A stretch of 64,000 nucleotides of DNA from Mycobacterium sp. (GTDB lineage Bacteria; Actinomycetota; Actinomycetes; Mycobacteriales; Mycobacteriaceae). Position numbers and translations under genes: made by a program. How positions within the stretch are numbered: the first letter of the stretch is position 1; every line of letters starts with the position of its first letter. Location: the NCBI RefSeq assembly GCF_029961025.1, contig NZ_JASBVP010000007.1, positions 310,001 to 374,000 on the forward strand, in the 5' to 3' direction. The notes below the pieces were generated by a model. The model was not told the DNA's origin, searched no databases, and saw nothing but the letters and a program-made list of their open reading frames with translations. This document shows, piece by piece, positions 5,665 through 42,315 of the stretch.

Positions 5665-6474
5665 ATGGACGGTGATGTGCCCAGGCCGCCGCTGGATGCG
5701 CCGACGATAGGTGACGGTCTGGTGGGGCCGGGGCTGCCATGGCGCCGGCTTGACGTGGTCGAGGAGACCGGCTCCACCAACGCCGACCTGCTGGCCCGGT
5801 GCGCGGCCGGCACCGACATCGACGGGTCGGTGCTGCTCGCCGAATACCAGAACGCCGGCCGCGGACGCCACGGCAGGCAATGGTCGGGCCCGCCCCGTTC
5901 CCAGATCGCCATGTCGGTCGGGGTCAGCGCGTCGTCGGTTCCCCCCTCGGGGTGGGGCTGGCTGACGTTGGCGACCGGTGTGGCGGTGGTCGACGCGCTG
6001 GCCGAGATGCCCGGCGTGCAGGCGGGTCTGAAATGGCCGAACGACGTGATGCTCGGCGGCGGCAAGCTGGCCGGTATCCTCGCCGAAGTCGCCGCGCCCG
6101 CCCCGACGATCGTGGTGGGCCTGGGGCTCAACGTCACGATGACGGCCGACGAAGCACCCGATGACGCGGCCACCTCGTTGTTGCTGGCGGGATCACCAGC
6201 CGACCGAAACGCGCTGACCTCCGGTATTCTTCGTGCACTGGCCAGACGCATCCGGCAGTGGCGCGCCGGCGGGGGCGCCGGTCGGGAGCTGCACGACGAC
6301 TACCGCCGCTACAGCCTGACGCTGGGTCGGCGGGTGCGGGCGACGCTTCCCGGTGGCCGCCATCTCGTCGGCCTTGCCCGGGACGTCGACGAGTTGGGCC
6401 GGTTGCGCATCGACACGGGCGAACACACGGTGACGCTATCGGCCGGCGACATCACCCACCTGCGAGCGCTCTAG
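5665..6474 (+). CDS. birA: Biotin--[acetyl-CoA-carboxylase] ligase BirA
   Basis: A 269-residue monofunctional biotin protein ligase that attaches biotin to carrier lysines of AccA-type subunits and pyruvate carboxylase through biotinyl-AMP. Visible motifs are ETGSTNADL near residue 35, the biotinyl-AMP loop GRGRHGRQW at about 67-75 and KWPNDVMLGG at about 122. There is no N-terminal helix-turn-helix domain, so it is not a DNA-binding repressor like E. coli BirA. It is divergent from accD5 and followed by the remnant of a PH-domain membrane protein gene. Confidence 0.95.
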   Translation: MDGDVPRPPLDAPTIGDGLVGPGLPWRRLDVVEETGSTNADLLARCAAGTDIDGSVLLAEYQNAGRGRHGRQWSGPPRSQIAMSVGVSASSVPPSGWGWLTLATGVAVVDALAEMPGVQAGLKWPNDVMLGGGKLAGILAEVAAPAPTIVVGLGLNVTMTADEAPDDAATSLLLAGSPADRNALTSGILRALARRIRQWRAGGGAGRELHDDYRRYSLTLGRRVRATLPGGRHLVGLARDVDELGRLRIDTGEHTVTLSAGDITHLRAL

Positions 6475-6482
6475 GTGCCGGC

Positions 6483-6639
6483 GTGCGCTATCCCGACAAT
6501 GTGTTGGCCGGCGACGAACAGGTGGTCGTGCATCGCACCCGCACTGGAATTTTGCGACATTCCGCGGGTGGCACAAGTGCCCGCGCTGCCCTATCACGAG
6601 GTCTTCGACACCCTCGAGTCCGATGAATCGCCCAGCTGA
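6483..6639 (+). pseudogene. Remnant of PH-domain membrane protein gene (Rv3278c type), internally deleted
   Basis: The first codons, GTG 6483 onward, read VRYPDNVLAGDEQVVVH, the normal N-terminus of the PH-domain (bPH2) membrane protein that follows birA in mycobacteria. In a different frame the DNA then reads LEFCDIPRVAQVPALPYHEV and FDTLESDESPS to a TGA at 6639, the normal C-terminus. Roughly 115-120 central codons, including both membrane segments, are missing, and the junction near 6543 shifts frame. The gene is therefore broken. Its 3' end overlaps the convergent GtrA gene by 46 bp. Confidence 0.88.
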
Positions 6640-7253
6640 CGAAACCGGTTGGCGCGCGATCGCCACGAGCGCAGCAGGGTGACGTTGCCGCCCTCGATGT
6701 TGTCTTCGAAGACCTCGGCGAATCCGCCCGCCGTGAGGGTGGACTCGAGTGCCTTCTCGGGGTTGCGCCCGAACTCGTCGGGGAACACCCAGCGCCGGAA
6801 CGCCCAGAAGCGGAACGCCATCTGCAGCAGATTGCCGATGATGTAGGCGGCGATGAAGTCGGCGATGTTCTCCACCGTCAACGACACCGTGGGCACCCGC
6901 AGCTGCAGGATGTAGTGGGAGACCCACAACGGTGCCAGGGCGAGCAGCACGCCCCCCCCGCTGAACGCGAAGAACAGCAGCGCCTCGTGGTGGCGTTCGC
7001 GGCCGCCGCGGTCGCGGAAGCTCCACTCCCTGTTCAAGATGTAGGAGGCGATGACGGCGACGATCCCGGAGATGACCTTGGCCGTCACGGGTTTGGGCTC
7101 GAGCACGGTGAGCTTTAGGGTGTAGAAGATCGCCGAGTCGATGACGAACGTGGTGGCACCGACGATGGCAAACTTGATCAGCTCGTGATGGCGTTCGACG
7201 TATGGTCGGACGAGCCCAGGTAACCGCGCGATCGTGGCATCGGCAAAGGACAC
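6594..7253 (-). CDS. GtrA-family membrane protein
   Basis: A 219-residue protein of the GtrA/DPMS family (Rv3277 type). These four-helix membrane proteins are thought to move or position polyprenyl-linked sugars for cell-surface glycosylation. The GtrA core (HELIKFAIVGATTFVIDSA and further segments GIVAVIASYILNREW, LFFAFSGGGVLLALA, IAAYIIGNLL) spans about residues 27-160, followed by a polar tail. I chose GTG 7253 (VSFADATIAR) over the longer track start because it matches the mycobacterial N-terminus and avoids overlap with purK. It is divergent from purK and convergent with the PH-domain remnant. Confidence 0.88.
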   Translation of the reverse strand: MSFADATIARLPGLVRPYVERHHELIKFAIVGATTFVIDSAIFYTLKLTVLEPKPVTAKVISGIVAVIASYILNREWSFRDRGGRERHHEALLFFAFSGGGVLLALAPLWVSHYILQLRVPTVSLTVENIADFIAAYIIGNLLQMAFRFWAFRRWVFPDEFGRNPEKALESTLTAGGFAEVFEDNIEGGNVTLLRSWRSRANRFRQLGDSSDSRVSKTS

Positions 7254-7338
7254 AGTTTGGCAGTGTACGTACCGCCGGTGACCCGTGCGCCGCGACGGTG
7301 TCACCACCGTTAAATACTTGCTCAGCCGCCATGACACC

Positions 7339-8544
7339 ATGAATGGCGTGCCCGCAGCCCGCGCCGCTGCGCCGCTGGTCGCCATGGTCGGCGGCGGTCA
7401 GCTCGCCCGGATGACCCACCAGGCGGCGATCGCGTTGGGTCAGTCGCTGCGGGTGCTGGTCACCGATGCCCACGAGCCGGCCGCTCAGGTCACCCCGGAT
7501 GTGGTGATCGGCTCGCACACCGACCTCGACGACCTGCGCCGCGTGGCGGCCGGGGCGGACGTGGTGACCTTCGATCACGAGCATGTCCCGATCGAGCTGC
7601 TGGAGAAGCTGGTCGCCGAAGGCGTCAACGTGGCACCCTCGCCGCAGGCCCTGGTGCACGCCCAGGACAAGCTCCGGATGCGCCGCCGGCTGGCGTCGGT
7701 GGGCGCGCCGGTGCCGCGTCACGTCGGCGTCGAGAGCCTCGACAACTTGGCCGATATCGACGCCTTCGTCCGGCGGATCGGGGGTCCGGTCGTGGTCAAG
7801 GCGGTCCGCGGTGGTTATGACGGGCGCGGAGTGCGGATGGCGCGTGATCTGGCGCATGCGCGGGAGACCGCGGCCGAGTTTCTGACCGCCGGCGTGGCGG
7901 TGCTGGTCGAAGAGCGGATCACGCTGCGCCGGGAGTTATCGGCGCTGGTGGCACGCTCCCCCTTTGGCCAGGGCGCGGCCTGGCCGGTGGTCGAGACGGT
8001 GCAGCGGGACGGTATTTGCGTGCTGGTGATCGCGCCGGCGCCGGACCTGTCCGAGGACACCGGCACCGAGGCGCAGCATCTGGCCTTGCGCTTGGCGGCC
8101 GAGCTGGGCGTCGTGGGCGTGCTGGCGGTCGAGTTGTTCGAGACCACCGCGGGTGCGCTGCTGGTCAACGAGCTCGCGATGCGGCCGCACAACTCCGGGC
8201 ACTGGACCATGGACGGGGCCCGCACCAGTCAGTTCGAGCAGCATCTGCGCGCGGTGCTCGACTACCCGCTCGGGGAGACCGCCGCGACCGTTCCGCTGAC
8301 CGTGATGGCCAACGTGCTGGGTGCCCCGCAGCCGCCGGCGATGACCGTCGACGAACGACTGCACCACCTGTTCGCCCGGATGCCCGACGCCCGAGTTCAC
8401 CTCTACGGCAAGGACGAGCGCCCGGGCCGCAAGATCGGGCACGTCAACCTGCTCGGCGCCGACGTCGCCGATCTGGCGACCCTGCGGGAACGCGCCGAGC
8501 GGGCGGCACACTGGTTATCCCACGGACAGTGGACCGACCGATGA
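7339..8544 (+). CDS. purK: N5-carboxyaminoimidazole ribonucleotide synthase PurK
   Basis: A 401-residue ATP-grasp enzyme that carboxylates aminoimidazole ribonucleotide with bicarbonate and ATP in de novo purine synthesis. Visible are the N-terminal nucleotide-binding segment VAMVGGGQLARM, the ATP-grasp loop KAVRGGYDGRGVRM and NELAMRPHNSGHWT. ATG 7339 (MNGVPAARA) is preferred to the track start at 7285 because the extra 18 residues are not typical. The gene is joined to purE by a MIRU-like spacer, and PurK and PurE act in sequence. Confidence 0.94.
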   Translation: MNGVPAARAAAPLVAMVGGGQLARMTHQAAIALGQSLRVLVTDAHEPAAQVTPDVVIGSHTDLDDLRRVAAGADVVTFDHEHVPIELLEKLVAEGVNVAPSPQALVHAQDKLRMRRRLASVGAPVPRHVGVESLDNLADIDAFVRRIGGPVVVKAVRGGYDGRGVRMARDLAHARETAAEFLTAGVAVLVEERITLRRELSALVARSPFGQGAAWPVVETVQRDGICVLVIAPAPDLSEDTGTEAQHLALRLAAELGVVGVLAVELFETTAGALLVNELAMRPHNSGHWTMDGARTSQFEQHLRAVLDYPLGETAATVPLTVMANVLGAPQPPAMTVDERLHHLFARMPDARVHLYGKDERPGRKIGHVNLLGADVADLATLRERAERAAHWLSHGQWTDR

Positions 8545-8596
8545 GCCCCGCCGGCGGCGATGCAGAGCGCAGCGATGAAAAGGAGCGGCGCCGATG
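8542..8596 (+). repeat. MIRU-like intercistronic element between purK and purE
   Basis: From the purK stop the spacer reads TGAGCCCCGCCGGCGG, then CGATGCAGAGCGCAGCGATG and AAAAGGAGCGGCGCCGATG, the last three bases being the purE start. The GATGCAGAGCG-GCGATGA core and GGAGCGGCGCCGATG end are characteristic of MIRU elements as known from the M. tuberculosis senX3-regX3 junction. The element supplies the purE ribosome-binding site (AAAAGGAG). This is the best match of the three copies in the window. Confidence 0.75.
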
Positions 8597-9100
8597 ACCC
8601 GACAACCCCGAGTCGCGGTGATCATGGGCAGCGACAGCGACTGGTCGGTGATGACCGCGGCCGCCGAGGCGCTGGCCGAGTTCGACATCCCCTTCGAGGT
8701 GCGGGTCGTTTCGGCGCACCGCACGCCCGCGCTGATGCTGGACTACGCCCGCGGCGCCGCCGACCGCGGCATCCAGGTGATCATCGCCGGCGCCGGAGGC
8801 GCCGCCCACCTGCCGGGAATGGTCGCCGCCGCCACGCCGCTGCCGGTCATCGGGGTGCCGGTGCCGCTGGCCCATCTCGACGGCCTCGACTCGCTGTTGT
8901 CGATCGTGCAGATGCCGGCCGGCGTGCCGGTGGCCACGGTCGCTATCGGGGGTGCCCGCAACGCGGGTCTGCTGGCGGTGCGCATGCTGGGGTCCGCGGA
9001 CCCCGGGCTGCGCACGCGGATGCTGGCCTTCCAGGAGCGGTTGGCGGAGACGGTACGGGCTAAGGACAACTCGCTTCAAGGTAAAGTTACCGGCGAATAG
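8594..9100 (+). CDS. purE: N5-carboxyaminoimidazole ribonucleotide mutase PurE
   Basis: A 168-residue class I PurE that isomerises N5-CAIR to CAIR, the step after PurK. The signature [13 protein letters not shown] is at about residues 8-20, SAHRTP near residue 41 and [12 protein letters not shown] near 66, all part of the octameric enzyme's active site. The ATG at 8594 follows a clear AAAAGGAG site within the MIRU-like spacer. fadE25 follows after 87 bp. Confidence 0.95.
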
Positions 9101-12480: not shown

Positions 12481-12630
12481 CGCCGCCAGTGTAACGGCAG
12501 ACGCGGCGCAATCGCCCGCGGCGAATGCGCGCCCGATCGAGAGACCCCCGTCAGCCGACCGTTCGCCGGGGAAGCGCCACCGGCGATTGCGGATTCGGCG
12601 ATTATGGATTCAGACGGAGAAGGAGCGCCG

Positions 12631-14523
12631 GTGACCGACTTGGACCTGCGGAAAAATCTCGTGACGCGCGTCAACGTGGGCGACATGCTGACCCGTACCG
12701 CTTGGCGACTGCCTGGGAAAGAGGCCGTGATCGACGGCCCGCGCCGGCTGACCTATGGCGAGCTGAACGCCGCCGTGAATCGGCTGGCCAACGCGCTGCT
12801 GACCGCGGGTTACCACCGCGGCGATGTGCTCGCCCTGGCGTGTGGTAACAGCGTCGAGTTCTTGCTCACCTATTACGCGTGTGCCAAAACCGGTGTGGTG
12901 TGTGTGCCGATCAATCTCGCGTGGGGACCGTCCGAGACGGCCTACGTGCTGGGGCACTGCGGCGCCAAAGGAATACTTGTGGAAAGCCAATTGGCCGAGC
13001 TCGTCGGTGCGGCGCTCGACCGCCTCGAACATCGCACGGTGACCGATGTGATCGTCGCACCCGGTACCGGCAGGCAATGGGGATCCACCGGTTCGTGCCA
13101 CTGGCGGGCACTGGGCGAGTTCGTCGGCGACGCCACCGACGCCGAGCCGGAATGCTTCGTCGCCGACCGGGACCCCATCACCTACCTCTACACCAGCGGC
13201 ACGACGTCGGCCCCCAAGGGGGTGGTGAGCAGCCACCTCGCGGTCTACCTGGAGTCGCTCACGGCCCCTTTGGTGTTGGGTCTTGGTGCCCAGGACCGCG
13301 CGGCGGTGATGATGCCGCTGTTTCACACCGCTCAACTCAACGGGTTCACCACCGCTTTGATCTACGTCGGTGGCACCGCGGTGTTGATGCGGGCGTTCGA
13401 CCCGGCCGCGCTGTTGGCGACCATCGAGGCCGAGCGCCTCACGCAGATCTTCGGGCTGCCGATGATGTACCGCGCGATGATGGATCACCCCGATATCACC
13501 GCACGCGACCTGTCGAGCCTGCGCCTGGCGCTGTATGCGATGGCACCGATGCCCGACACCGACCTGCGCAGGGCCATGGAGGTTTTCGGCTGCCGGTTCG
13601 CGCTCGGTTTCGGCCAGACCGAGATGAACCCGCTGACCACCGTCTTTCCGCCCGAGTATCAGCTGTCGCACGCGGGCTCCGTCGGCCTGCCGGTTCCCAA
13701 TGTTCAGGTGGGGATCATGGACGATGCCGGCCGGCTGCTGCCCGGCGGCCAGCCCGGCGAGATCGTCTACCGTGGCCCGCACGCGATGGAGGGCTACCTG
13801 CGCGACCCGGAGGCCACCGCCGAGGCATTCGCGCATGGCTGGTTTCATTCCGGCGACATCGGCCGCTTCGATGCCGACGGGCTGCTGTGGTTCACCGACC
13901 GCAAGAAGGACGTGATCAAGACCGGGGGTGAGAACGTGGCCTCCATTGAAGTCGAGAAGGCGCTCTATGAGGCAGAGCCCCGGATCCAGGAGGTGGTCGT
14001 GGTGGGAGTGCCGCATGAACGCTGGACCGAGGCCATCGTGGCGATCGTCACCCCCAAGCCGGACACCCGGCTCACCGAGGAGGACGTGCTGGCTGCGGCC
14101 CGCCACCGACTGTCGGGGTTCAAGGTGCCCAAGGCGGTGATCTTCACCGACAAGATGCCCCGCACCGCGACGGGCAAGGTGCAAAAGAACCTGCTACGGG
14201 AGCAGTACCAAGACTTTTTCTTTCCAGGACTAAACGGAGGGGGAGGTCGGTGTCCACTGCGCCGGTCGCGGTCCCGGCGCCCGGGGACGTGTCGACCGAC
14301 GTGGCGTGGATCGGTTCCCGGCTGTTTCACGGGTCGGGCGGTGGTGCCATCTCGCGAAAACTGCGGTGCGCGTAGACGATCGGTGAGGCCTCACCCAGAC
14401 GAACGTGCCGCACCAAGCCGAGCAGGATGGTGTGGTCGCCGGCTTCAATCCGCTGTGCGGTCTCGCAGTCGACGGTGGCCACCGCGTCAACGAGCGCCGG
14501 ACAGCCCAGGGCGGTGTCGGTGA
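12631..14523 (+). CDS. Acyl-CoA synthetase (FadD type) with aberrant C-terminal read-through
   Basis: An AMP-forming acyl-CoA ligase. Visible are the P-loop YLYTSGTTSAPKG near residue 180, LGFGQTEMNP near 330, the hinge region WFTDRKKDVIKTGGENV and the C-terminal PRTATGKVQK with catalytic lysine. GTG 12631 follows AAGGAG by five bases. The family normally ends soon after the TGK motif. Here the frame continues about 95 residues past FFFPGLNGGG as low-complexity Arg-rich sequence overlapping a minus-strand gene. A TAA lies in the +1 frame at 14231, just after a run of five T's, so a one-base slip may have removed the natural stop. Conserved domains are intact, so it may still be active. Confidence 0.82.
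   Translation: MTDLDLRKNLVTRVNVGDMLTRTAWRLPGKEAVIDGPRRLTYGELNAAVNRLANALLTAGYHRGDVLALACGNSVEFLLTYYACAKTGVVCVPINLAWGPSETAYVLGHCGAKGILVESQLAELVGAALDRLEHRTVTDVIVAPGTGRQWGSTGSCHWRALGEFVGDATDAEPECFVADRDPITYLYTSGTTSAPKGVVSSHLAVYLESLTAPLVLGLGAQDRAAVMMPLFHTAQLNGFTTALIYVGGTAVLMRAFDPAALLATIEAERLTQIFGLPMMYRAMMDHPDITARDLSSLRLALYAMAPMPDTDLRRAMEVFGCRFALGFGQTEMNPLTTVFPPEYQLSHAGSVGLPVPNVQVGIMDDAGRLLPGGQPGEIVYRGPHAMEGYLRDPEATAEAFAHGWFHSGDIGRFDADGLLWFTDRKKDVIKTGGENVASIEVEKALYEAEPRIQEVVVVGVPHERWTEAIVAIVTPKPDTRLTEEDVLAAARHRLSGFKVPKAVIFTDKMPRTATGKVQKNLLREQYQDFFFPGLNGGGGRCPLRRSRSRRPGTCRPTWRGSVPGCFTGRAVVPSRENCGARRRSVRPHPDERAAPSRAGWCGRRLQSAVRSRSRRWPPRQRAPDSPGRCR
14250..14375 (+). pseudogene. Truncated ORF (41 codons) at edge of flavin monooxygenase operon
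   Basis: GTG 14250 is preceded by a strong AGGGGGAGG ribosome site and opens VSTAPVAVPAPGDVSTD then VAWIGSRLF before ending at a TAG after 41 codons. The position and ribosome site are those expected of the second gene in an operon with the upstream acyl-CoA ligase. The frame runs into the 3' end of the convergent flavin reductase gene, so the rest appears to have been lost at a recombination junction around 14330-14345. The original product is not recognised, and it could also be a genuine small ORF. Confidence 0.45.
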
Positions 14524-14833
14524 ATGATGCGCCCGCAAACTTGTCGGCGCCCTTGCAGGCGAATCTGCGCGCCAGGGCGCGGTGCTGTACGCCGAGAATG
14601 TTGACCGCGAACGCTCGCGTTGCCAGGAAGGCCGGGTGACAGTCGGCGGTGCGATCCAGACACGTCAGGACCAGCGGTGGAGCCACGGACACCGCGGTGA
14701 ATGCGGTGGCGGTGAAGCCCCGTGGGCGGCCGTCGGCAGCCAAGGTGGTGACCAGGGTCACCCCGCTGGGAAAGCGGCTCATCGCCTCGCGGAACAGCGC
14801 TTGGGTCACTGCGGTGTCTTGGCCGACGGTCAT
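14327..14833 (-). CDS. Flavin reductase (HpaC/HsaB-like FMN-binding)
   Basis: A 168-residue flavin reductase-domain protein that uses NAD(P)H to supply reduced flavin to a partner monooxygenase. The family pattern SRFPSGVTLVTT near residue 20, GFTATAFTAVSVAPPLVL and FAVNILGVQH are clear. The start overlaps the stop of the 75-residue ORF (ATGA), and the gene is last in an operon with a luciferase-type oxygenase, so it is the obvious reductase component. The final residues APPPDP are unlike the family and may derive from the junction with the truncated plus-strand ORF. Confidence 0.88.
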   Translation of the reverse strand: MTVGQDTAVTQALFREAMSRFPSGVTLVTTLAADGRPRGFTATAFTAVSVAPPLVLTCLDRTADCHPAFLATRAFAVNILGVQHRALARRFACKGADKFAGASFTDTALGCPALVDAVATVDCETAQRIEAGDHTILLGLVRHVRLGEASPIVYAHRSFREMAPPPDP

Positions 14834-15057
14834 CGTGGCGCCCGGTAGACGTCGTCGGGCAGATCCTCGGGCAGATCGAGGAGAGGACCGAGCTTATCCC
14901 GCTTGCTGCGCAGGTAGCGAAGGTTATCTGCGGTGACGCCGCAGCGCGGCGCTACCCTGTCGAGGCCGTAACCGGGCGGACCGGGCGGACCGGTGTACTT
15001 CGCGGGAGTGAGCGGCATGTCACGGTGCTCGGCAAATCGCTGCAGGATCCGAGACAT
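14830..15057 (-). CDS. Small protein of unknown function (75 aa) in flavin monooxygenase operon
   Basis: I do not recognise this protein. It is basic at the N-terminus (MSRILQRFAEHRDM), Pro/Gly-rich in the middle (YTGPPGPPGYGLDR) and ends in an acidic helix-like segment (LLDLPEDLPDDVYRAPR). There is no signal peptide, membrane segment or cysteine pair. It lies six bases after the hydrolase gene stop and overlaps the flavin reductase start by four bases, so it is almost certainly translated. Tight coupling to the reductase suggests a small partner in that reaction, but this is inference only. Confidence 0.7.
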   Translation of the reverse strand: MSRILQRFAEHRDMPLTPAKYTGPPGPPGYGLDRVAPRCGVTADNLRYLRSKRDKLGPLLDLPEDLPDDVYRAPR

Positions 15058-15063
15058 CGTCGG

Positions 15064-15852
15064 TTACTCGAAGCAGTGGGGGGCGTGGCCGAATTCCGCC
15101 CAGTCTTGCGGATCGTGGGTGATCCACACCGTGGCGTCGGCGCTGTCGCGCAACAATTGCAGCCGCCGGATGGAGCGCAGCGACTGCTCGGTGTTCGCGT
15201 CGTAGGGCATCGGCACCACGGCTTCGAGGGCCTCACGCAGATGCACCGTGTCGCCGGTGAGGATGAAATTGCGACTGGGCAGGCGCACCAGCAGGCTCAG
15301 CTCCCCGGGGGTGTGGCCGGGCGTGAACAGGATCACGACGCTGCCGTCACCGAACACGTCGTGGTCTACCCCCGGGATCTCCCGCCACCGGAACCGCCGG
15401 GCGGCGTCGATGTCCGCTTGCCGGAAGAACGCCGCGCCTGCGGGGTCGGGCCAGTACGCGTAGCGGATATCTCCCTGCCCGACGAAGAACTCGGCCTGCG
15501 GGAACAGATACAAACCGCCGCTGTGATCGAAGTGGGTGTGCGAGACGATCACGTATTTGACATCCGACGTCGCATAACCCAGCGCCTGCAGCTGACGGTC
15601 GATCGCCTGCTCGGGACTGAAGCGCAACCCGAGCAGCCCGGCGAGTTCCCCGTAGACGCCTTCGGGGTCGGTCGCCGCCGCCGGGACCAGGCCGGTGTCG
15701 AACAGCACCAGCCCTTTGGGGTGCTCGATGAGGTAGGCGGGCATGGGGATGGTGCACTCGCCGGAGGCGCCGACCATGAGAATCGACTTATCGAGGGTGA
15801 ACGTCGGCGAATCCAGCGCCCACAGGCGCTTTGCCGTGCCGAACGCGGTCAT
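15064..15852 (-). CDS. Metallo-beta-lactamase-fold hydrolase, N-acyl homoserine lactonase-like
   Basis: A 262-residue metallo-hydrolase resembling AttM/AiiB-type lactonases. The metal site SHTHFDHSGG is near residue 102; later ligands appear in FTPGHTPGELSLLV and TGDTVHLREA. Such enzymes open lactone or thioester bonds. ATG 15852 is preferred because the longer track start at 15900 would overlap the oxygenase gene by 32 bases. Its place between a flavin monooxygenase and its reductase suggests it opens a lactone or ester formed in that pathway rather than serving quorum quenching, but the substrate is not visible. Confidence 0.85.
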   Translation of the reverse strand: MTAFGTAKRLWALDSPTFTLDKSILMVGASGECTIPMPAYLIEHPKGLVLFDTGLVPAAATDPEGVYGELAGLLGLRFSPEQAIDRQLQALGYATSDVKYVIVSHTHFDHSGGLYLFPQAEFFVGQGDIRYAYWPDPAGAAFFRQADIDAARRFRWREIPGVDHDVFGDGSVVILFTPGHTPGELSLLVRLPSRNFILTGDTVHLREALEAVVPMPYDANTEQSLRSIRRLQLLRDSADATVWITHDPQDWAEFGHAPHCFE

Positions 15853-15868
15853 TGGCGGGGCATCGTCG

Positions 15869-17266
15869 TCAGGTCCCGGCCACCGCCGGCACGGCGACAT
15901 CCAGGTTCACCGAGCTGTCTTGGCGCGCCGGGCTGCCGCCGCATTCCTTGCGCAGCACCGGCATGATCTCCTCGGCGAAGTACTGCATCTGCGCCTCGAT
16001 CTCCTCGCCGGCGAAGCCCCCGAGCTCAAACCAGGCGTTGAACATGAAGTCCTCATAGCCGCACTGGTCTTTGACCTTCATGATGGTGTCGATCACGTAG
16101 TCCTTGGAGCCGTGGATGGCGACCTCCTTTTGGCGCAGCAGGTCCGCGGTGACCTTCATGTTCAGGTCGTACATGGGCTCGTCGGCCTCGGCCAGCACTG
16201 CGGCGAACCCGAACGGCCCGTAGTAATCCCACTGCAGCTCCATTCCGCGTGCGGCGCGATCCAGATCGCCCAGCCCCTTGTCGACCACATGGATGTAGCG
16301 GCAGGTCACCACGCCGCGGCGCTTCTCGGCATCCCAGCCGTGTTTGAACTGCCCGCGGCCCTGGCGGTCCGGCCATCCCGCTTTCTCCGCAGCGTCGTAG
16401 TACAACTCGATGTTCTTACGCAGCCGCGAGTTCGGTTCGACAATGAAGTAGCCATTGATGCCGTGCTCGGCTGCCCACTTGATGGAGCGGGAGCTGGTCA
16501 GCGGCTCCCAGATCTGGGGGTAGGGCTTCTGCAGCGGCTGCGGGTAGACGGGAAACTCCAGCAGCTTGGTGGTGGTCGCCTGGACCGGGTTGCCGCCCGA
16601 GTACATGTCCGGCGGCCCCAGCTTGAGCACCTGCTCCAACGACCGGCCCACGCCCGGACGGCTGAAATAGGCGATCGTCTGCTTGTGATTCCACTTGGTG
16701 TAGGACGGCGGCAGCGACAGGAATTCGCCGTGGTGGCTGAAGGAGTCCTGGGTCCAGGCCTTGATGATGGTCTCGTAGGCCTCTTCGTAGTAGGCGCGGT
16801 TGCGTTCCTGGTCCTGGATGGTCGACCCATAGGTCCATCCGAAGGTTTCGTTCTCCCGCGGCTGATAGCCGCGGCCGATGCCGAACTCCAGGCGCCCCCC
16901 GCTGATCACGTCGAGCATCGCGGCTTGCTCGGCGATCCGCACCGGGTGCCACCAGGTGATGATGTTCGCCGCTTGTGCCAGCCGGATCCGCTTGGTCCGA
17001 GACGCGATCGCCGCCTCGCTGAGCAGCGGATTCGGCGACAGTTCCGCGCCTTCGGGCTGGAAGTGGTGCTCGGTTTGAAACCAGTAGTCATAGCCGAGCT
17101 GGTCGGCGAGAATGCCTTGCCGCACCTGGTTGACGATGGTTCGCTGGGCGGCGGCATGGGTCTCGGCCAGCGTGCCGTCGTTGACGGTGACCGACACCCC
17201 GTCCACGTCCACCGCGACCCCGGGCAGGTCGGATGCACCGTTGTGGAAGACCCCGATCTCGATCAT
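15869..17266 (-). CDS. Luciferase-like (LLM class) flavin-dependent monooxygenase
   Basis: A 465-residue LLM-family TIM-barrel oxidoreductase. Typical segments are QLGYDYWFQTEHHFQPEG near residue 57, SRTKRIRLAQAANI, HPVRIAEQAAMLDVISGGR and FGIGRGYQPRE near 130. It is longer than most LLM proteins because of insertions in the middle. It starts at ATG 17266 after AAGGAG. A flavin reductase is encoded three genes downstream on the same transcript, so it probably works as the oxygenase of a two-component FMN-dependent system. Substrate unknown; flanking acyl-CoA ligases point to a hydrophobic or carboxylate-yielding compound. Confidence 0.9.
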   Translation of the reverse strand: MIEIGVFHNGASDLPGVAVDVDGVSVTVNDGTLAETHAAAQRTIVNQVRQGILADQLGYDYWFQTEHHFQPEGAELSPNPLLSEAAIASRTKRIRLAQAANIITWWHPVRIAEQAAMLDVISGGRLEFGIGRGYQPRENETFGWTYGSTIQDQERNRAYYEEAYETIIKAWTQDSFSHHGEFLSLPPSYTKWNHKQTIAYFSRPGVGRSLEQVLKLGPPDMYSGGNPVQATTTKLLEFPVYPQPLQKPYPQIWEPLTSSRSIKWAAEHGINGYFIVEPNSRLRKNIELYYDAAEKAGWPDRQGRGQFKHGWDAEKRRGVVTCRYIHVVDKGLGDLDRAARGMELQWDYYGPFGFAAVLAEADEPMYDLNMKVTADLLRQKEVAIHGSKDYVIDTIMKVKDQCGYEDFMFNAWFELGGFAGEEIEAQMQYFAEEIMPVLRKECGGSPARQDSSVNLDVAVPAVAGT

Positions 17267-17344
17267 CTCGCTCCTTATCGTTGTGGGTCTCGGCCGCGCC
17301 GGACCGCGTCAGCGTTAGCTTGCTCCCGGTATCGGCTGATGATG

Positions 17345-17361
17345 CGTCCCGAAACGGGACA
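17345..17361. promoter_or_regulatory. Candidate operator 1 for AcoR-like regulator, upstream of LLM monooxygenase operon
   Basis: The sequence CGTCCCGAAACGGGACA contains a perfect 6-bp inverted repeat, GTCCCG / CGGGAC, around AAA. It lies about 80 bp before the monooxygenase start in the only long gap of the operon. It matches the site at 22386 at 16 of 17 positions and the site at 19632 at 13 of 17. All three lie in front of genes of the same block, which suggests a common regulator, most simply the adjacent AcoR-like protein. Confidence 0.6.
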
Positions 17362-17401
17362 CCGAGAGAAACGGCGGCCGCCGAAGCGGGTCGGGTTACG
17401 T

Positions 17402-17845
17402 TCAGTCATCGCGGCCTTGCCCGGGGGGTCGGTGCGCGGGGTGGGCGTGCGGGTGGCCGGGGTGCGGCGGGCGGCCATGTCCGTGGTCATGGCGTACCGG
17501 CTCACCGGCCGCAGCCCCGTGCTCGCGCAGCGTTTGCTCCTGGCGCTGCAGTTCGCGTTCCAGTCGCCGGTTGTCGCGGCGGGCGCGGGCCACCCAGGCG
17601 CGCGCCGCCGGGGGCGTCAGGTGGCACAACCCGGGCACGTCGGGATACTCACGGCAGGACGGCGCCCGGTCACCGGAACCGTCCGCCGCGGGCGGCCGGG
17701 CGACACCGCCGAGGCTCACCGGGCGGTAGCACCGCCGCGCCGGAGCGCCGCAGGCCGGGCAGGGCATCACGCTCGGCGGTGGTGTCGCGACGAGCCGCTC
17801 CACCCGGCCGGAGCAGGTCGTGCAGCGGTAGTCCACCAGGATCAC
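17402..17845 (-). CDS. FmdB-type zinc-ribbon protein with His-rich C-terminus
   Basis: A 147-residue protein beginning VILVDYRCTTCSGRVERLV and PCPACGAPARRCYRP, a four-cysteine zinc ribbon of the FmdB/CxxC-SSSS type found in putative regulatory proteins. The middle includes a coiled-coil-like Arg/Gln/Glu stretch (RRLERELQRQEQTLREH). The C-terminus is strikingly rich in histidine (HDHGHGRPPHPGHPHAHP), suggesting metal binding. GTG 17845 overlaps the ligase stop codon (GTGA). Its function is unknown; small FmdB-like proteins commonly accompany monooxygenase and acyl-CoA ligase genes in actinobacteria. Confidence 0.82.
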   Translation of the reverse strand: MILVDYRCTTCSGRVERLVATPPPSVMPCPACGAPARRCYRPVSLGGVARPPAADGSGDRAPSCREYPDVPGLCHLTPPAARAWVARARRDNRRLERELQRQEQTLREHGAAAGEPVRHDHGHGRPPHPGHPHAHPAHRPPGQGRDD

Positions 17846-19494
17846 CGGGCCGGCACCTCCCCGGCGGGGGCGCGCAGCGCCGCGCGAGCGGCCGGATCGG
17901 CGAACCGGGCGCGCAGCGCCTTCTTGTCGAATTTGCCGACCCCGGTCTTGGGAATCTCCGGCAGCAACAGGACCTCGTCGGGTATCCACCATTTGGGTAG
18001 GCGGTCGGCCAGATACGCCCTGAGTTCCGGCTCGGTCAGCACATCCCTGGCGACAACACAGGCCAGTGGACGTTCCAGCCACCGGGGGTGCGGCACCGCC
18101 ACCACCGCCGCCTCGATCACCGCCGGGTGGGCCATCAAGGCGTTCTCCAATGCCACCGAGGAGATCCACTCGCCGCCGCTTTTGATCAAGTCCTTGGCCC
18201 GGTCGGTCAGGCGCACGTACCCGTCCGGGTCGATGGTTCCGACGTCACCGGTGTAAAACCAGCCGTCGCGAAAACTCTCTGAGCTGCGGGGATCGTCAAA
18301 ATACTCGCGGGCAACCCAGGGTGAACGCAGCAGAAATTCGCCCACGTGGGTGCCGTCCCACGGCAGTTCCCGGCCGGCCTCGTCGACGAGCCTGATCTCG
18401 CACAACGGCAGCGGCAGCCCTTGGGCGGCGCGAACCGCGTCCCGCTCATCCTCGGCAAGATCGCGGTGCTTTTCCTTCAGCTCGGTGAAGGTCACCAACG
18501 GCGAGGCCTCGGTCATGCCCCAGCCCTGGGCCACGCTGACCCCGTGCACGTCGCGCCACCAGCGCATCAGGCCGGTAGGTGGTGCTTGTCCGCCCAGCCA
18601 CAGCACCTGCAGCGAAGAGAGGTCATAGGCTCGCCCGGCCGACAGCAGCTCATCGCGCATCATCACCCCGACCGTGACCGCGCCGACGGCATGGGTGACC
18701 CGACACGCCTCGATCAGCTCGAGGTAATCGCGTGCCTGCGGGTGCGGGCCGGGCAGCACCAGGGTGGTGCCCTGCAACGCGGCCGCATACGGGATGCCCC
18801 AGCTGTTGGCGTGAAACATCGGGCTGATGGCCAGGAAGGTGGCGTCTTCGCGCACGCCGATCGACCCGTGCACGCACAACCCCAACGTGTGCAAAACCAG
18901 GCTGCGGTGGCTGTACACCACGGCCTTGGGATCACCGGTGGTGCCGGAGGTGTAGCACACGGCCGCGGCGGTGTTCTCGTTGAATTCCGGTGCACCGCCA
19001 TCGCCGCGACCCGCGGCCAGCAGGTCCTCGTATCCGTAAACCGGGCACAGCCGGGTCTCGGGGACCCTGGGCGCCATCACGACGTAGGCCCGCACCCCGG
19101 GCAGCTGCGGTGCCAGCCGCTCGGCCAGGGGGATCTGATCGGGCTCCAGCAAAAGCACCCGGTCCCCGGCGTGGTTGATGGTGTAGCGAATCTGCTCGGG
19201 AGGCAGCCTCAGGTTCACGGTGTGCAGCACCGCGCCCATGCAGGGCACCCCGAAATAGGCCTCGTAGTGCCGGTAGGTGTTCCACGCCAGAGTGCCCACC
19301 CGGTCGCCGGCACGCACACCCAGCGCCGCCAGCGCCTCACCGAGCCGGCGAACGCGATCCGCGAACTCCGCGTAGCTGTAGCGGTGGATGCCCTCGCCGG
19401 TGCGCGCAATGACCGGTTTGTCGCCGAAGACGTGCTCGGCGCGCCACAGCAGCCGGTGGACCAGCAGCTGGTGGTCCATCATCAGTGCGCGCAT
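17842..19494 (-). CDS. Acyl-CoA synthetase (AlkK/medium- to long-chain type)
   Basis: A 550-residue AMP-forming ligase that activates a carboxylic acid to its CoA ester. Motifs are CYTSGTTGDPKAVVYSHRS near residue 175, QGWGMTEASPL near 325, WFYTGDVGTIDPDGY and DRAKDLIKSGGEWISS near 425, and C-terminal PKTGVGKFDKK with the catalytic lysine. ATG 19494 (MRALMMDHQLL) follows GGAAGGG and replaces the longer track start at 19605. It is divergent from the AcoR-like regulator gene and coupled to the zinc-ribbon gene by a four-base overlap. Confidence 0.9.
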   Translation of the reverse strand: MRALMMDHQLLVHRLLWRAEHVFGDKPVIARTGEGIHRYSYAEFADRVRRLGEALAALGVRAGDRVGTLAWNTYRHYEAYFGVPCMGAVLHTVNLRLPPEQIRYTINHAGDRVLLLEPDQIPLAERLAPQLPGVRAYVVMAPRVPETRLCPVYGYEDLLAAGRGDGGAPEFNENTAAAVCYTSGTTGDPKAVVYSHRSLVLHTLGLCVHGSIGVREDATFLAISPMFHANSWGIPYAAALQGTTLVLPGPHPQARDYLELIEACRVTHAVGAVTVGVMMRDELLSAGRAYDLSSLQVLWLGGQAPPTGLMRWWRDVHGVSVAQGWGMTEASPLVTFTELKEKHRDLAEDERDAVRAAQGLPLPLCEIRLVDEAGRELPWDGTHVGEFLLRSPWVAREYFDDPRSSESFRDGWFYTGDVGTIDPDGYVRLTDRAKDLIKSGGEWISSVALENALMAHPAVIEAAVVAVPHPRWLERPLACVVARDVLTEPELRAYLADRLPKWWIPDEVLLLPEIPKTGVGKFDKKALRARFADPAARAALRAPAGEVPAR

Positions 19495-19579
19495 GTGTGC
19501 GCCCTTCCGCTCTCCTCCCGCGAAGCGGAGTCCACGGCATACGCCATAACCAGGCACTTCGGCTGCCACGCGAACCGTC

Positions 19580-19621
19580 GCCATTCTGGCATCAGCGGAA
19601 GCCATTCTGGCATCAGCGGAA
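19580..19621. repeat. Perfect 2 x 21-bp tandem repeat in ligase/regulator divergent promoter
   Basis: Two perfect adjacent copies of GCCATTCTGGCATCAGCGGA plus A lie in the 224-bp space between the acyl-CoA ligase and the regulator. Each copy holds the short dyad GCCA-TTC-TGGC. A 21-bp period equals two DNA turns, so the copies would face the same side of the helix. They are 11 bp from candidate operator 2, which suggests a second regulatory element, though a simple recent duplication is equally possible. Confidence 0.7.
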
Positions 19622-19631
19622 TCAGAAAGCG

Positions 19632-19648
19632 TGTCTCAAAACGGCACA
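19632..19648. promoter_or_regulatory. Candidate operator 2 for AcoR-like regulator, in ligase/regulator divergent promoter
   Basis: TGTCTCAAAACGGCACA shares 13 of 17 positions with the site at 17345 and keeps the outer TGT...ACA dyad. It lies between the divergent starts of the acyl-CoA ligase (19494) and the regulator (19719), a position able to control both genes. It is the weakest of the three copies, as is often the case for an autoregulatory site. Confidence 0.5.
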
Positions 19649-19718
19649 TCGTTGCCCCGGTCGATACGGGAAACTCACTGTAACGTGGCTCACATACCGA
19701 GATAAGCGGAGGATCCAG

Positions 19719-21515
19719 GTGGCGGTTGCACGGGCATCAACCAGCCATGCCGCGATGGAGAGCGCGAAAGCCCGGTTGATCAACGGAGAGCCGATCAGCC
19801 ACAGCGTTCGCGACGAAATCCTCACCTCGTGGCGTCGCTCCCGAATGCTCGGGGCTGATCCGGACCGGTTTGCGCTGCCATACCGGCCCGAGTTCGACGC
19901 GCAGAGCCCGCTGCTGCGTGCCGCGATTCCCGTTGTCGATCGGCTGGCCACCCTGCTGGCGGACACCAACACCGCGATCATCCTGTCCGACCCGCTCGGC
20001 CGCATCGTGGCCCGCCGGGTGGGTCAGGGCGCCCTGATGCGCCACCTCGACCGGGTGTGCGCGGCCGAGGGTTTCGTCTACGCCGAGGACATCGTCGGCA
20101 CCAACGGCCTGGGCACCGCGGTGGAAATCGGCCGGGCGATCCAGGTGGTCGGACCGGAGCACTTCGCCGAGCGGCTGGCGGAGCTGACCTGTGTCGGCGT
20201 GCCCATCCTCGATCCGCTCACCCGACGACTGGTGGGCGTGATCGATTTGACCTGTCACGTGCGCGACACCAACGGTTTGCTTCGCCCCCTGGTGGAACAA
20301 GCCAGCCGGGACATCAGCGAGCGGCTGTATCACCAGCGCAGCCTGGACGAGCAGGCGTTGCTGCAGCATTTCCTGCAAGCCGGCCACACCAGTTCGCAGG
20401 CGCTGGTCGCCATCAACCAGCGGATCATGATCGCCAACGCGCGGGCGTCCCGCCTGCTCGCCGGCGTCGAACACGCCCTGCTGTGGGAACAGGCGGGCCG
20501 GATGATGACGATCGGCACCGGTGGCGAACACGACCTCGCGTTTCCGGGTGAGACGGGTTTGCGGGTGCGGGCCAGGGCGATCCAGGAGGCCGGCACACCG
20601 ATCGGTGCGCTGCTGGAGATCCGGGAGATGGCACAGCCGCCGGGTCCGCGACCGACGGGCGACGACGGCGCCGACGAGCTTCCCGGTGTGGCCGGTCGCA
20701 GCGCCGCGTGGCGAGGATGCTGTCGGCTTGCCCGCGACGCCGCGCGCCGCGGCGCCTCGCTGGTCCTGTCGGGCGAGCCCGGGGTGGGCAAGTTCACCGT
20801 GGCCAAGGCGCTGCACGAGACGGTGCACCCGGGGGCCGCACTGGTGGTGGCCGACGCGGCCGCGGTGGCCGTCGAGGGCCCGTCGCCGTGGTTGTCCCGG
20901 CTGCGTCACCAGGTCGCCGGCCCGCCGCACGGGACCCTGATCGTCCGCAACGTGGATGTGCTGGAACCGGCGCTGGTGCGCGGCTTGCGCGCACTGGCGC
21001 AGGATCTTCCCGCGGGTGGGTGGCTGTTCATCGCGACCGCGACCGGCCTCGGTGACTGTGATCCGCTAACAACGTTTCTCGACGCGGTGCGGGTCGAGGT
21101 GCCGACGTTGCGGGAACGGCCCGAGGATCTGCCGCCGCTGGTCGCCGCGCTGGCAACGCGCCAGGCGCGGCGCACCGGGCGGCGGCGCGAGTTCAGCAGC
21201 GAGGTACTGCAGGCCTTCCAACGGCTGTACTGGCCGGGCAACGTCGCCCAGCTGGCCGAGCTTGTCGAGACCCTGACCTCGGGTGCGCAACCCGGTCCGG
21301 TCCGCCTGACCGAAGTTCCAGCCGACCTGCTGCGCGCGGCGACTCGCCGCCCCGTCAGCCGCTTCGAGCGCGCCGAAGTCGACGCGATCCTGGCCGCGCT
21401 GCACGAAACCGGGGGCAACAAGAAAGCGGCGGCGCAACGCCTGGGGATCTCACGCTCCCGCCTGTATCGCAAGTTGCACAGCGTCGGCATCGATATCGAC
21501 CACGCGTTTTACTGA
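19719..21515 (+). CDS. AcoR/NtrC-like transcriptional regulator (GAF, degenerate AAA+, Fis-type HTH)
   Basis: A 598-residue regulator. An N-terminal sensor with GAF-like features (EDIVGTNGLGTAVEIG near residue 125 and VGVIDLTCH near 170) is followed by an AAA+ domain with Walker A GEPGVGKFTVAKAL near 360. A Fis-type helix-turn-helix, GGNKKAAAQRLGISRSRLYR, lies at the extreme C-terminus. The sigma54-contact GAFTGA loop is missing and the usual GTLFLDE Walker B reads GTLIVRNVD. Mycobacteria lack sigma54, so this AcoR-like group must act with another sigma factor. GTG 19719 follows GGAGG. It is divergent from the ligase operon and probably its activator, with candidate binding sites at 17345, 19632 and 22386. 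Confidence 0.88.
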   Translation: MAVARASTSHAAMESAKARLINGEPISHSVRDEILTSWRRSRMLGADPDRFALPYRPEFDAQSPLLRAAIPVVDRLATLLADTNTAIILSDPLGRIVARRVGQGALMRHLDRVCAAEGFVYAEDIVGTNGLGTAVEIGRAIQVVGPEHFAERLAELTCVGVPILDPLTRRLVGVIDLTCHVRDTNGLLRPLVEQASRDISERLYHQRSLDEQALLQHFLQAGHTSSQALVAINQRIMIANARASRLLAGVEHALLWEQAGRMMTIGTGGEHDLAFPGETGLRVRARAIQEAGTPIGALLEIREMAQPPGPRPTGDDGADELPGVAGRSAAWRGCCRLARDAARRGASLVLSGEPGVGKFTVAKALHETVHPGAALVVADAAAVAVEGPSPWLSRLRHQVAGPPHGTLIVRNVDVLEPALVRGLRALAQDLPAGGWLFIATATGLGDCDPLTTFLDAVRVEVPTLRERPEDLPPLVAALATRQARRTGRRREFSSEVLQAFQRLYWPGNVAQLAELVETLTSGAQPGPVRLTEVPADLLRAATRRPVSRFERAEVDAILAALHETGGNKKAAAQRLGISRSRLYRKLHSVGIDIDHAFY

Positions 21516-21558
21516 GCGTTTTACCCGAGAGCCTGGTTGGCGCTGCGGCCCGATCACC

Positions 21559-22311
21559 TCACTGGGCGGTGTAACCGCCGTCGATGACGAGTTCGGAGCC
21601 GGTGACGAATGAGGACTCGTCCGATGCGAGAAACAGGGCCCCGTAGGCAACCTCCTCGGGTTTCCCGGCCCGGCCCAGCGGGGTGGCCCGAATTAACGGG
21701 GGCAGCGCGTCGGGCGGCACTTGCTCGTCGATCATCGGGGTGGCGATGACACCGGGGTGCACGGAGTTGACCCGGATGCCCTGCGGGGCGTACTGGATCG
21801 CGGCGGTCTTGGTCAGCAGCCGAACGGCGCCCTTGGTGCCTTGGTATGCGGTCGCGGCGCCGCTGCCGATGAGGCCATAGATCGACGAGACATTGACGAT
21901 CGAGCCGCCCCCTGCCCGGCGCATCGCCGGCACGCAGGTCTTCATGCCCAGCCACACACCGGTCTGGTTGACCGCGATGATGGTGTTCCACAACGCCAGG
22001 TCGGTGTCTTCGACCCCCGCCATGCTCAGGATTCCCGCGTTGTTGACCAGGACGTCCAGCTTCCCGTAGCGGTTCTCGGCCTGCGTGACCGCGTTCGTCC
22101 AGTCGCTTTCACGAGTCACGTCGAGGCGCATCGCGTAGACCTCGCGGTTGCTGCCAGCCAACTCGTCGCGAAGAGCGTACACGTCATCTTCCCGCACATC
22201 GCCGATCACTAACCGGGCGCCCTCGGCGGCGAACAAGCGGGCCTCCGCGGCGCCCTGCCCGCGGGCGGCCCCGGTGATCAACGCCACCTTGCCCTGGAGT
22301 CTGTCGGCCAC
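21559..22311 (-). CDS. Short-chain dehydrogenase/reductase
   Basis: A 250-residue classical SDR. The nucleotide-binding loop TGAARGQG is near residue 13, NNAG near 88, the catalytic Ser in SSIYG and the YxxxK motif as YQGTK near 153. GTG 22311 (VADRLQGKVALITG) replaces the long track start. A basic position after the second strand is absent (GDVRED), which favours NAD(H) over NADP(H). It is convergent with the regulator gene and has its own candidate operator about 75 bp upstream, so it is probably part of the same catabolic regulon. Confidence 0.88.
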   Translation of the reverse strand: MADRLQGKVALITGAARGQGAAEARLFAAEGARLVIGDVREDDVYALRDELAGSNREVYAMRLDVTRESDWTNAVTQAENRYGKLDVLVNNAGILSMAGVEDTDLALWNTIIAVNQTGVWLGMKTCVPAMRRAGGGSIVNVSSIYGLIGSGAATAYQGTKGAVRLLTKTAAIQYAPQGIRVNSVHPGVIATPMIDEQVPPDALPPLIRATPLGRAGKPEEVAYGALFLASDESSFVTGSELVIDGGYTAQ

Positions 22312-22385
22312 CGGGACCCGCCCTTCCGCTCGCGCCTTCGAAAACCGTTCATCGCGCAGTATGCCCGCTGCGGAGGCCGGGGAGG

Positions 22386-22402
22386 TGTCGCGTTTCGGGA
22401 CG
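22386..22402. promoter_or_regulatory. Candidate operator 3 for AcoR-like regulator, upstream of SDR gene
   Basis: On the plus strand the site reads TGTCGCGTTTCGGGACG. Its reverse complement CGTCCCGAAACGCGACA differs at one position from the site at 17345. It stands about 75 bp before the dehydrogenase start. The match over 17 bases between two intergenic sites 5 kb apart, both in front of genes of this block, is unlikely by chance. Confidence 0.6.
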
Positions 22403-22477
22403 CACCCTGGATTGCGGGCGACGCCCGCTCGGCGCGGCCCTCGGAAGCGCGCCGGGGTTACCGCTAGCATCACGGGG

Positions 22478-23161
22478 ATGACCCACCCCGTCGGGAACCG
22501 CGCCCGTCACGCCGGAGACACCTGCTGCGACGACGATTCACCGCAGTCCGGCCGGGAAGCGGCATGGCACCGGCTCGCCCGGTGGGCGCGACGGCTGGCC
22601 TGGGTGAGCCTGGCCGCGATGCTCACCGAAGGCGCCGTGGGGTTGTGGCAGGGCTTGGCGGTGGGATCCATCGCACTGACCGGCTGGGCGCTGGGCAGTG
22701 CGCCCGAGGCGCTGGCCAGCGCCATGGTGATCTGGCGGTTCAGCGGGGTGCGCACCCTCTCCGCGACCTCCGAACGACGGGCCCAGCGCGGTGTCGCGCT
22801 GTCGTTTTGGCTGACGGCCCCCTACATCGCCGCCGAATCCGTCCGGGATCTGTTCGGTGCGCACCGCGCCGAGACCTCGCGGATCGGCATCGCCGTGACC
22901 GGCATTGCGCTGGTGTTGATGCCGGTCCTCGGCCGGGCCAAACGCAACCTCGCGCTGCGGTTGGGCTCGCCGGCCACCGCCGGCGAGGCCACCCAGAATT
23001 ATCTGTGCGCCGCCCAGGCCGCCGCGGTTCTGGTCGGTCTTTCACTCTCCGCCGCCTGGCCCGGCGGCCGGTGGTGCGATCCGGTGATCGGTCTGGGCAT
23101 CGCCGCCGTCGCGGCCTGGCAGGGCATCCGGTCGTGGCGGGGCGAAGACTGCGGATGCTGA
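22478..23161 (+). CDS. CDF-like integral membrane protein with Cys-rich termini (Rv3271c type)
   Basis: A 227-residue membrane protein with about five hydrophobic segments, resembling the transmembrane half of cation diffusion facilitators (AGLAVGSIAL-like segment GLAVGSIALTGWALGSAPEAL, then SAMVIWRFSG). The cytosolic metal-binding domain of true CDF proteins is missing. Short acidic/cysteine motifs occur at both ends: DTCCDDDS near residue 15 and GEDCGC at the C-terminus. It corresponds to Rv3271c beside ctpC. The last 120 bp overlap the convergent ctpC gene. A metal-related role is inferred from its neighbours. Confidence 0.85.
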   Translation: MTHPVGNRARHAGDTCCDDDSPQSGREAAWHRLARWARRLAWVSLAAMLTEGAVGLWQGLAVGSIALTGWALGSAPEALASAMVIWRFSGVRTLSATSERRAQRGVALSFWLTAPYIAAESVRDLFGAHRAETSRIGIAVTGIALVLMPVLGRAKRNLALRLGSPATAGEATQNYLCAAQAAAVLVGLSLSAAWPGGRWCDPVIGLGIAAVAAWQGIRSWRGEDCGC

Positions 23162-41842: not shown

Positions 41843-42315
41843 CGGCCGCGCCGCGTCCGCCCGCGCTTTCCGGGCGCGGCGGTCCGCTCCGTCACCAGCG
41901 TCTGCCCGGACGGCAACATCCTCGGTTCCGTCTCCCCGGGTCAACAACCGCGACACCCGGACAACCCCGGCAACCCAGCGAGCACCCAGGAAACCCGCCA
42001 CCCCACGAGGCAACCGGCAGCTGACACGCACCAAGACCGTGCTCACAGAACCACGGCAAAAATCCAGGCGACCCACGACCGTTCGGGGCCGCCCACCGGG
42101 CGAAACTCAGTTTCACCCAGTGTTGAGGAACGGTGTCGGACAACCCGGGCGGTCGGCCCCGGCCGACGGCACCGGATCGCCGCCGTCCAGAAGGGCGAAG
42201 CGACGCAAAAACTCGCCGCGCAGCTGCGCACCGTAGTCGGTACTGTGCCCACGAAAGGAACAAGAAACGCAAAAGGCAAAAGGAAAGACGGAAGCAAAGC
42301 TGAAAGGAAAGGTGC
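41843..42315 (+). promoter_or_regulatory. Long leader region upstream of amino acid permease, with dyads and purine-rich tract
   Basis: No convincing gene occurs in these 473 bp. Just after the CDF stop a GC hairpin (CCCGCG / CGCGGG-like arms, 41855-41885) could terminate transcription. GAAACT-C-AGTTTC at 42101-42113 is a perfect 6-bp dyad. CGGTCGGCCCCGGCCGACGG at about 42150 can fold into a strong stem. The last 60 bases before the permease ATG are almost purely A/G (AAAGGAACAAGAAACG, AAAAGGCAAAAGGAAAG), unlike anything else in the window. The layout fits a structured 5' leader, but no known riboswitch class was recognised. Confidence 0.45.

Follow-up and report, generated by a model that had tools for sequence, protein, structure and literature searches.

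The window analysed here is the whole 64-kb stretch of DNA, and all coordinates below are in window numbering. An acyl-CoA ligase lies on the forward strand, and its conserved part (12631..14230), recognised through Pfam and its orthologues, carries a full-length AMP-binding domain (PF00501, 3-384 of 384) and a full-length AMP-binding_C domain (PF13193, 1-76 of 76). As the original prediction had stated, this gene is without a normal stop, and the frame stays open to 14521-14523, giving 630 codons counted from 12631. Facing it on the reverse strand is a flavin reductase (14327..14833; PF01613), followed on that same strand by a remnant of RibBA (14830..15057), a lactonase-like hydrolase of the metallo-beta-lactamase (MBL) fold (15064..15900; PF00753), a luciferase-like monooxygenase (15869..17266; PF00296) and a second acyl-CoA ligase (17842..19605; PF00501/PF13193). 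The intact genes of this series are 88%, 95%, 97% and 85% identical, respectively, to those of Mycobacterium sp. SM1. Between the first ligase and the reductase are a diverged convergent spacer (14234..14338) and, on the forward strand, a 41-codon ORF (14250..14375) that is probably not a gene.

The end of the ligase gene

The ligase resembles FadD-type acyl-CoA ligases (the NCBIfam NF006182/NF004837 neighbourhood) in having both domains complete. Unlike members of those families, it scores below the curated cut-offs, with 515 bits against 663 for NF006182, the best among the matches listed, and 469 bits against 476 for NF004837. A search of 199 Mycobacterium genomes found five orthologues with 77-90% identity, each stopping at 531-536 aa, and a search of the collection found further relatives in Pseudonocardia, Prauserella, Amycolatopsis and others. 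Eighteen of the 19 best relatives are full-length and stop at the expected place, all at 524-537 aa, and the long C-terminus of the window ligase is thus not a conserved feature. In the nineteenth (L102), the frame is broken. The nearest relative is that of SM1, with 90% amino acid identity and the C-terminus ...REQHQGFFLD*.

Pairwise alignment with SM1 places the difference at 14213..14233 on the forward strand, where the window has ctttttctttccaggactaa and SM1 has ctttttcctggactag, a net gain of 4 nt. This length is indivisible by three and amounts to a +1 shift, so that the SM1 ligase ends in ...CTTTTTCCTGGACTAG and that of the window continues as ...CTTTTTCTTTCCAGGACTAA. The old stop, a TAA at 14231-14233, is still present one frame off (+1), downstream of a five-T run at 14215-14219, as had been noticed earlier. 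The loss of the stop can be polarised because all the relatives agree.

The spurious read-through extension (14234..14523, forward strand) comprises about 95 codons and is antisense to the reductase from 14327. Its GC content at the three codon positions is 0.73/0.83/0.56, compared to 0.67/0.46/0.85 in the ligase, which makes the extension non-coding in its statistics. This antisense frame is likewise open in SM1, but there an in-frame stop cuts it off from the ligase. The open frame is therefore a side effect of the reductase being encoded on the opposite strand; antisense frames in high-GC DNA are commonly open.

The convergent junction and its spacer

Collinearity between SM1 and the window extends across the full 64 kb at about 89% DNA identity, and the gene order of SM1 is ligase, convergent reductase, RibBA, MBL hydrolase, luciferase-like monooxygenase and second ligase. 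SM1 thus shares the convergent ligase/reductase junction while its ligase has the normal stop, which makes the junction older than the frameshift. It would have been inherited from an ancestor common to the window lineage and SM1. The original prediction had placed a recombination point joining two operons at 14212-14375, and this shared local synteny does not support it. The tail of the reductase had been described as abnormal, and this was not confirmed: the Flavin_Reduct domain of Pfam is complete, with residues 18-161 aligned to profile positions 1-151 of 153, and the differences from SM1 are confined to the last ~7 residues, beyond FREM (APPPDP vs TERHDPLGPL).

The spacer is about 61% identical to SM1. 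This is barely above shuffled sequence, as the local score was 40.5 and the shuffles gave 28.6 (sd 5.1) with a maximum of 49.5. Twelve further places in the window lose identity to SM1, most of them to a greater extent than the spacer does. Since SM1 is the sole genome with the same junction, the spacer change cannot be assigned to one of the two lineages. A terminator hairpin was considered and rejected, as the window spacer folds no better than shuffled sequence (z -0.04, +0.40) and no terminator-like site was found in it; the SM1 spacer gives a weak folding signal (z -1.5 and -2.1). A mobile-element footprint at the spacer was likewise rejected because no repeats of it occur elsewhere in the genome.

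The 41-codon ORF starts with GTG and terminates within the 3' part of the facing reductase gene, to which its final codons are antisense, as first reported. It had been called well signalled. The motif AGGGGGAGG does precede it at 14238-14246, just 3 nt from the GTG, but an unusually good signal was not confirmed: among the 153 ORFs of 40-60 codons in the window, six have a 5/6 Shine-Dalgarno match. No homologue was found in 397 Mycobacterium genomes, in which the best other E-value was 0.004 among hundreds of comparable chance matches, or in 249 other genomes of the order. Plasmids, phages and the remainder of the source genome likewise gave none. A full-length gene with the same start (VSTAPVAVPAPGDVSTD) was absent from these genus, order, plasmid, phage and own-genome searches as well. 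Downstream of the ligase relatives, the 19 loci gave only chance matches, the best of which was the SM1 reductase antisense. The SM1 frame matching the ORF ends at the same TAG with ISRKPRCA, its upstream part is unrelated, and the two share only the antisense tail ISRKxRCA*. With no full-length homologue found, the claim that this ORF is a truncated gene could not be demonstrated. It is probably a chance ORF of the convergent spacer that finishes in the antisense of the reductase tail; its fairly coding-like third-position GC (0.83) and its 5/6 Shine-Dalgarno match count against this reading.

The monooxygenase island

Of the 199 Mycobacterium genomes, just two, that of the window and SM1, have the reductase and the monooxygenase at the thresholds used, and this monooxygenase is absent from 249 other genomes of the order. 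A relative with 43% identity sits on a Rhodococcus plasmid. The pairing of a luciferase-like monooxygenase with a PF01613 reductase is that of two-component monooxygenase/flavin reductase operons, here with the lactonase-like MBL hydrolase in addition. The operon of SM1 also has its own RibBA, a protein of 412 aa encoded between the reductase and the MBL hydrolase that passes the cut-off of NCBIfam NF006803, whereas only a remnant of 75 codons is left in the window. This remnant joins a dozen residues from the middle (SM1 176-188) to the C-terminal ~57 residues. As two separated pieces are fused, at least two deletions took most of the gene, assuming that the SM1 form is ancestral. The loss of the cluster copy is tolerable since the housekeeping RibBA of riboflavin biosynthesis is intact on another contig (G000:C2:985-2199).

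These genes are part of a catabolic island (~12500-22900) containing the ligase, flavin reductase, lactonase-like MBL hydrolase, monooxygenase, second ligase, a DhaR-like regulator and an SDR, flanked by an LCM methyltransferase and ctpC. In one genome (G063), caiB and LCM adjoin ctpC with neither the ligase nor the monooxygenase cluster between them, and in another (G122) the distance from caiB to ctpC is 612 bp. The flanks are thus kept in a relative without the ~10-kb block from the ligase to the SDR, which delimits the island to roughly 12.5 to 22.9 kb. We infer that it arrived as one piece. The original prediction also saw the monooxygenase cluster as foreign to the genes around it. At the larger scale this stands, given the presence in 2 of 199 genomes and the ~10-kb block missing in a relative, but it fails at 14.2-14.4 kb, a point inside the island and not at its edges near 12.5 kb and 22.9 kb.

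Other elements were seen near the same flank. In a further genome (G160, L146 6020-7468), the neighbour of LCM is another acyl-CoA ligase with 31% identity, which suggests that this place is a variable spot for insertions. SM1 has an IS607-looking insertion element between LCM and the ligase (L051 ~6400-8712) and a second copy ~17 kb away; the element encodes a serine-resolvase-like protein and a second ORF of 538 aa that is TnpB-like by eye only. The window is without this element between LCM and the ligase, and a 70-bp fragment 87% identical to the element's end is located at 42065-42134.

Origin and meaning of the lost stop

We consider it probable that the window ligase ends in a lineage-specific +1 frameshift in its last codons and is otherwise intact. 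The net 4 nt gained relative to the sister species would have put the normal stop out of frame, and the open frame would then cross the convergent spacer, which diverges fast, and enter the antisense strand of the flavin reductase gene. Another explanation, with a minor but real chance of being correct, is a sequencing or assembly error in which a base was miscounted near the T runs and the true ligase stop is at 14231-14233. The stretch ctttttctttcc is T-rich, and a gene-by-gene comparison with SM1, made for the window only, found few other genes broken in the 64 kb, so the lesion is nearly alone. However, the net difference is 4 nt and not a one-base homopolymer slip, although the same sum would arise from one erroneous base together with a genuine insertion of a 3-nt codon, and the assembly is good (99.94% complete, 27 contigs). 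We infer that the mutation at the ligase end is biological and not an assembly error.

It is very unlikely that recombination joined two operons here, making the ligase read through and reducing the gene that followed it in its operon to a stump. Such a joining would fit the rarity of the reductase/monooxygenase cluster and the ligase orthologues of four other Mycobacterium genomes, which lie in other contexts without the cluster. Yet the same junction next to an intact ligase stop in SM1 largely refutes it, no full-length gene like the 41-codon ORF was found downstream of the ligase orthologues or elsewhere in the searches, and the adjoining of LCM and ctpC in a relative means that the ligase and the monooxygenase cluster are missing together. 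Programmed or slippage frameshifting, by which some ribosomes would reach the TAA one frame off, has still less to recommend it. A TTT TTC TTT run is immediately 5' of that TAA, but the SM1 orthologue needs no shift, the features of the site are not conserved, and a run of five T is short for transcript slippage. It is also most improbable that the Arg-rich tail of 95 residues alters the behaviour of the ligase, or that the 41-codon ORF encodes a small protein which arose very recently in the convergent spacer, in this lineage alone.

The gene arrangement was thus inherited, and the lesion within it is explained by an ordinary stop-loss frameshift or, possibly, by a fault in the assembly. Ordinary 3'-terminal frameshifts of bacterial genes likewise have a small indel in the last codons, a stop out of frame and a non-homologous tail, and nothing notable differs here; the tail of the window ligase happens to overlap a convergent gene. 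The main consequence is for annotation, in which the predicted ligase would exceed its proper length by about 95 residues and overlap the reductase, and the label of truncated gene should be withheld from the 41-codon ORF. With its domains intact, the ligase may keep its activity with a useless tail, or it may be beginning to decay alongside the RibBA remnant. The surroundings, in which the partner riboflavin-synthesis gene of the island is almost entirely deleted, suggest that a monooxygenase island of rare and patchy distribution is in an early stage of decay in a mycobacterial genome of small size.
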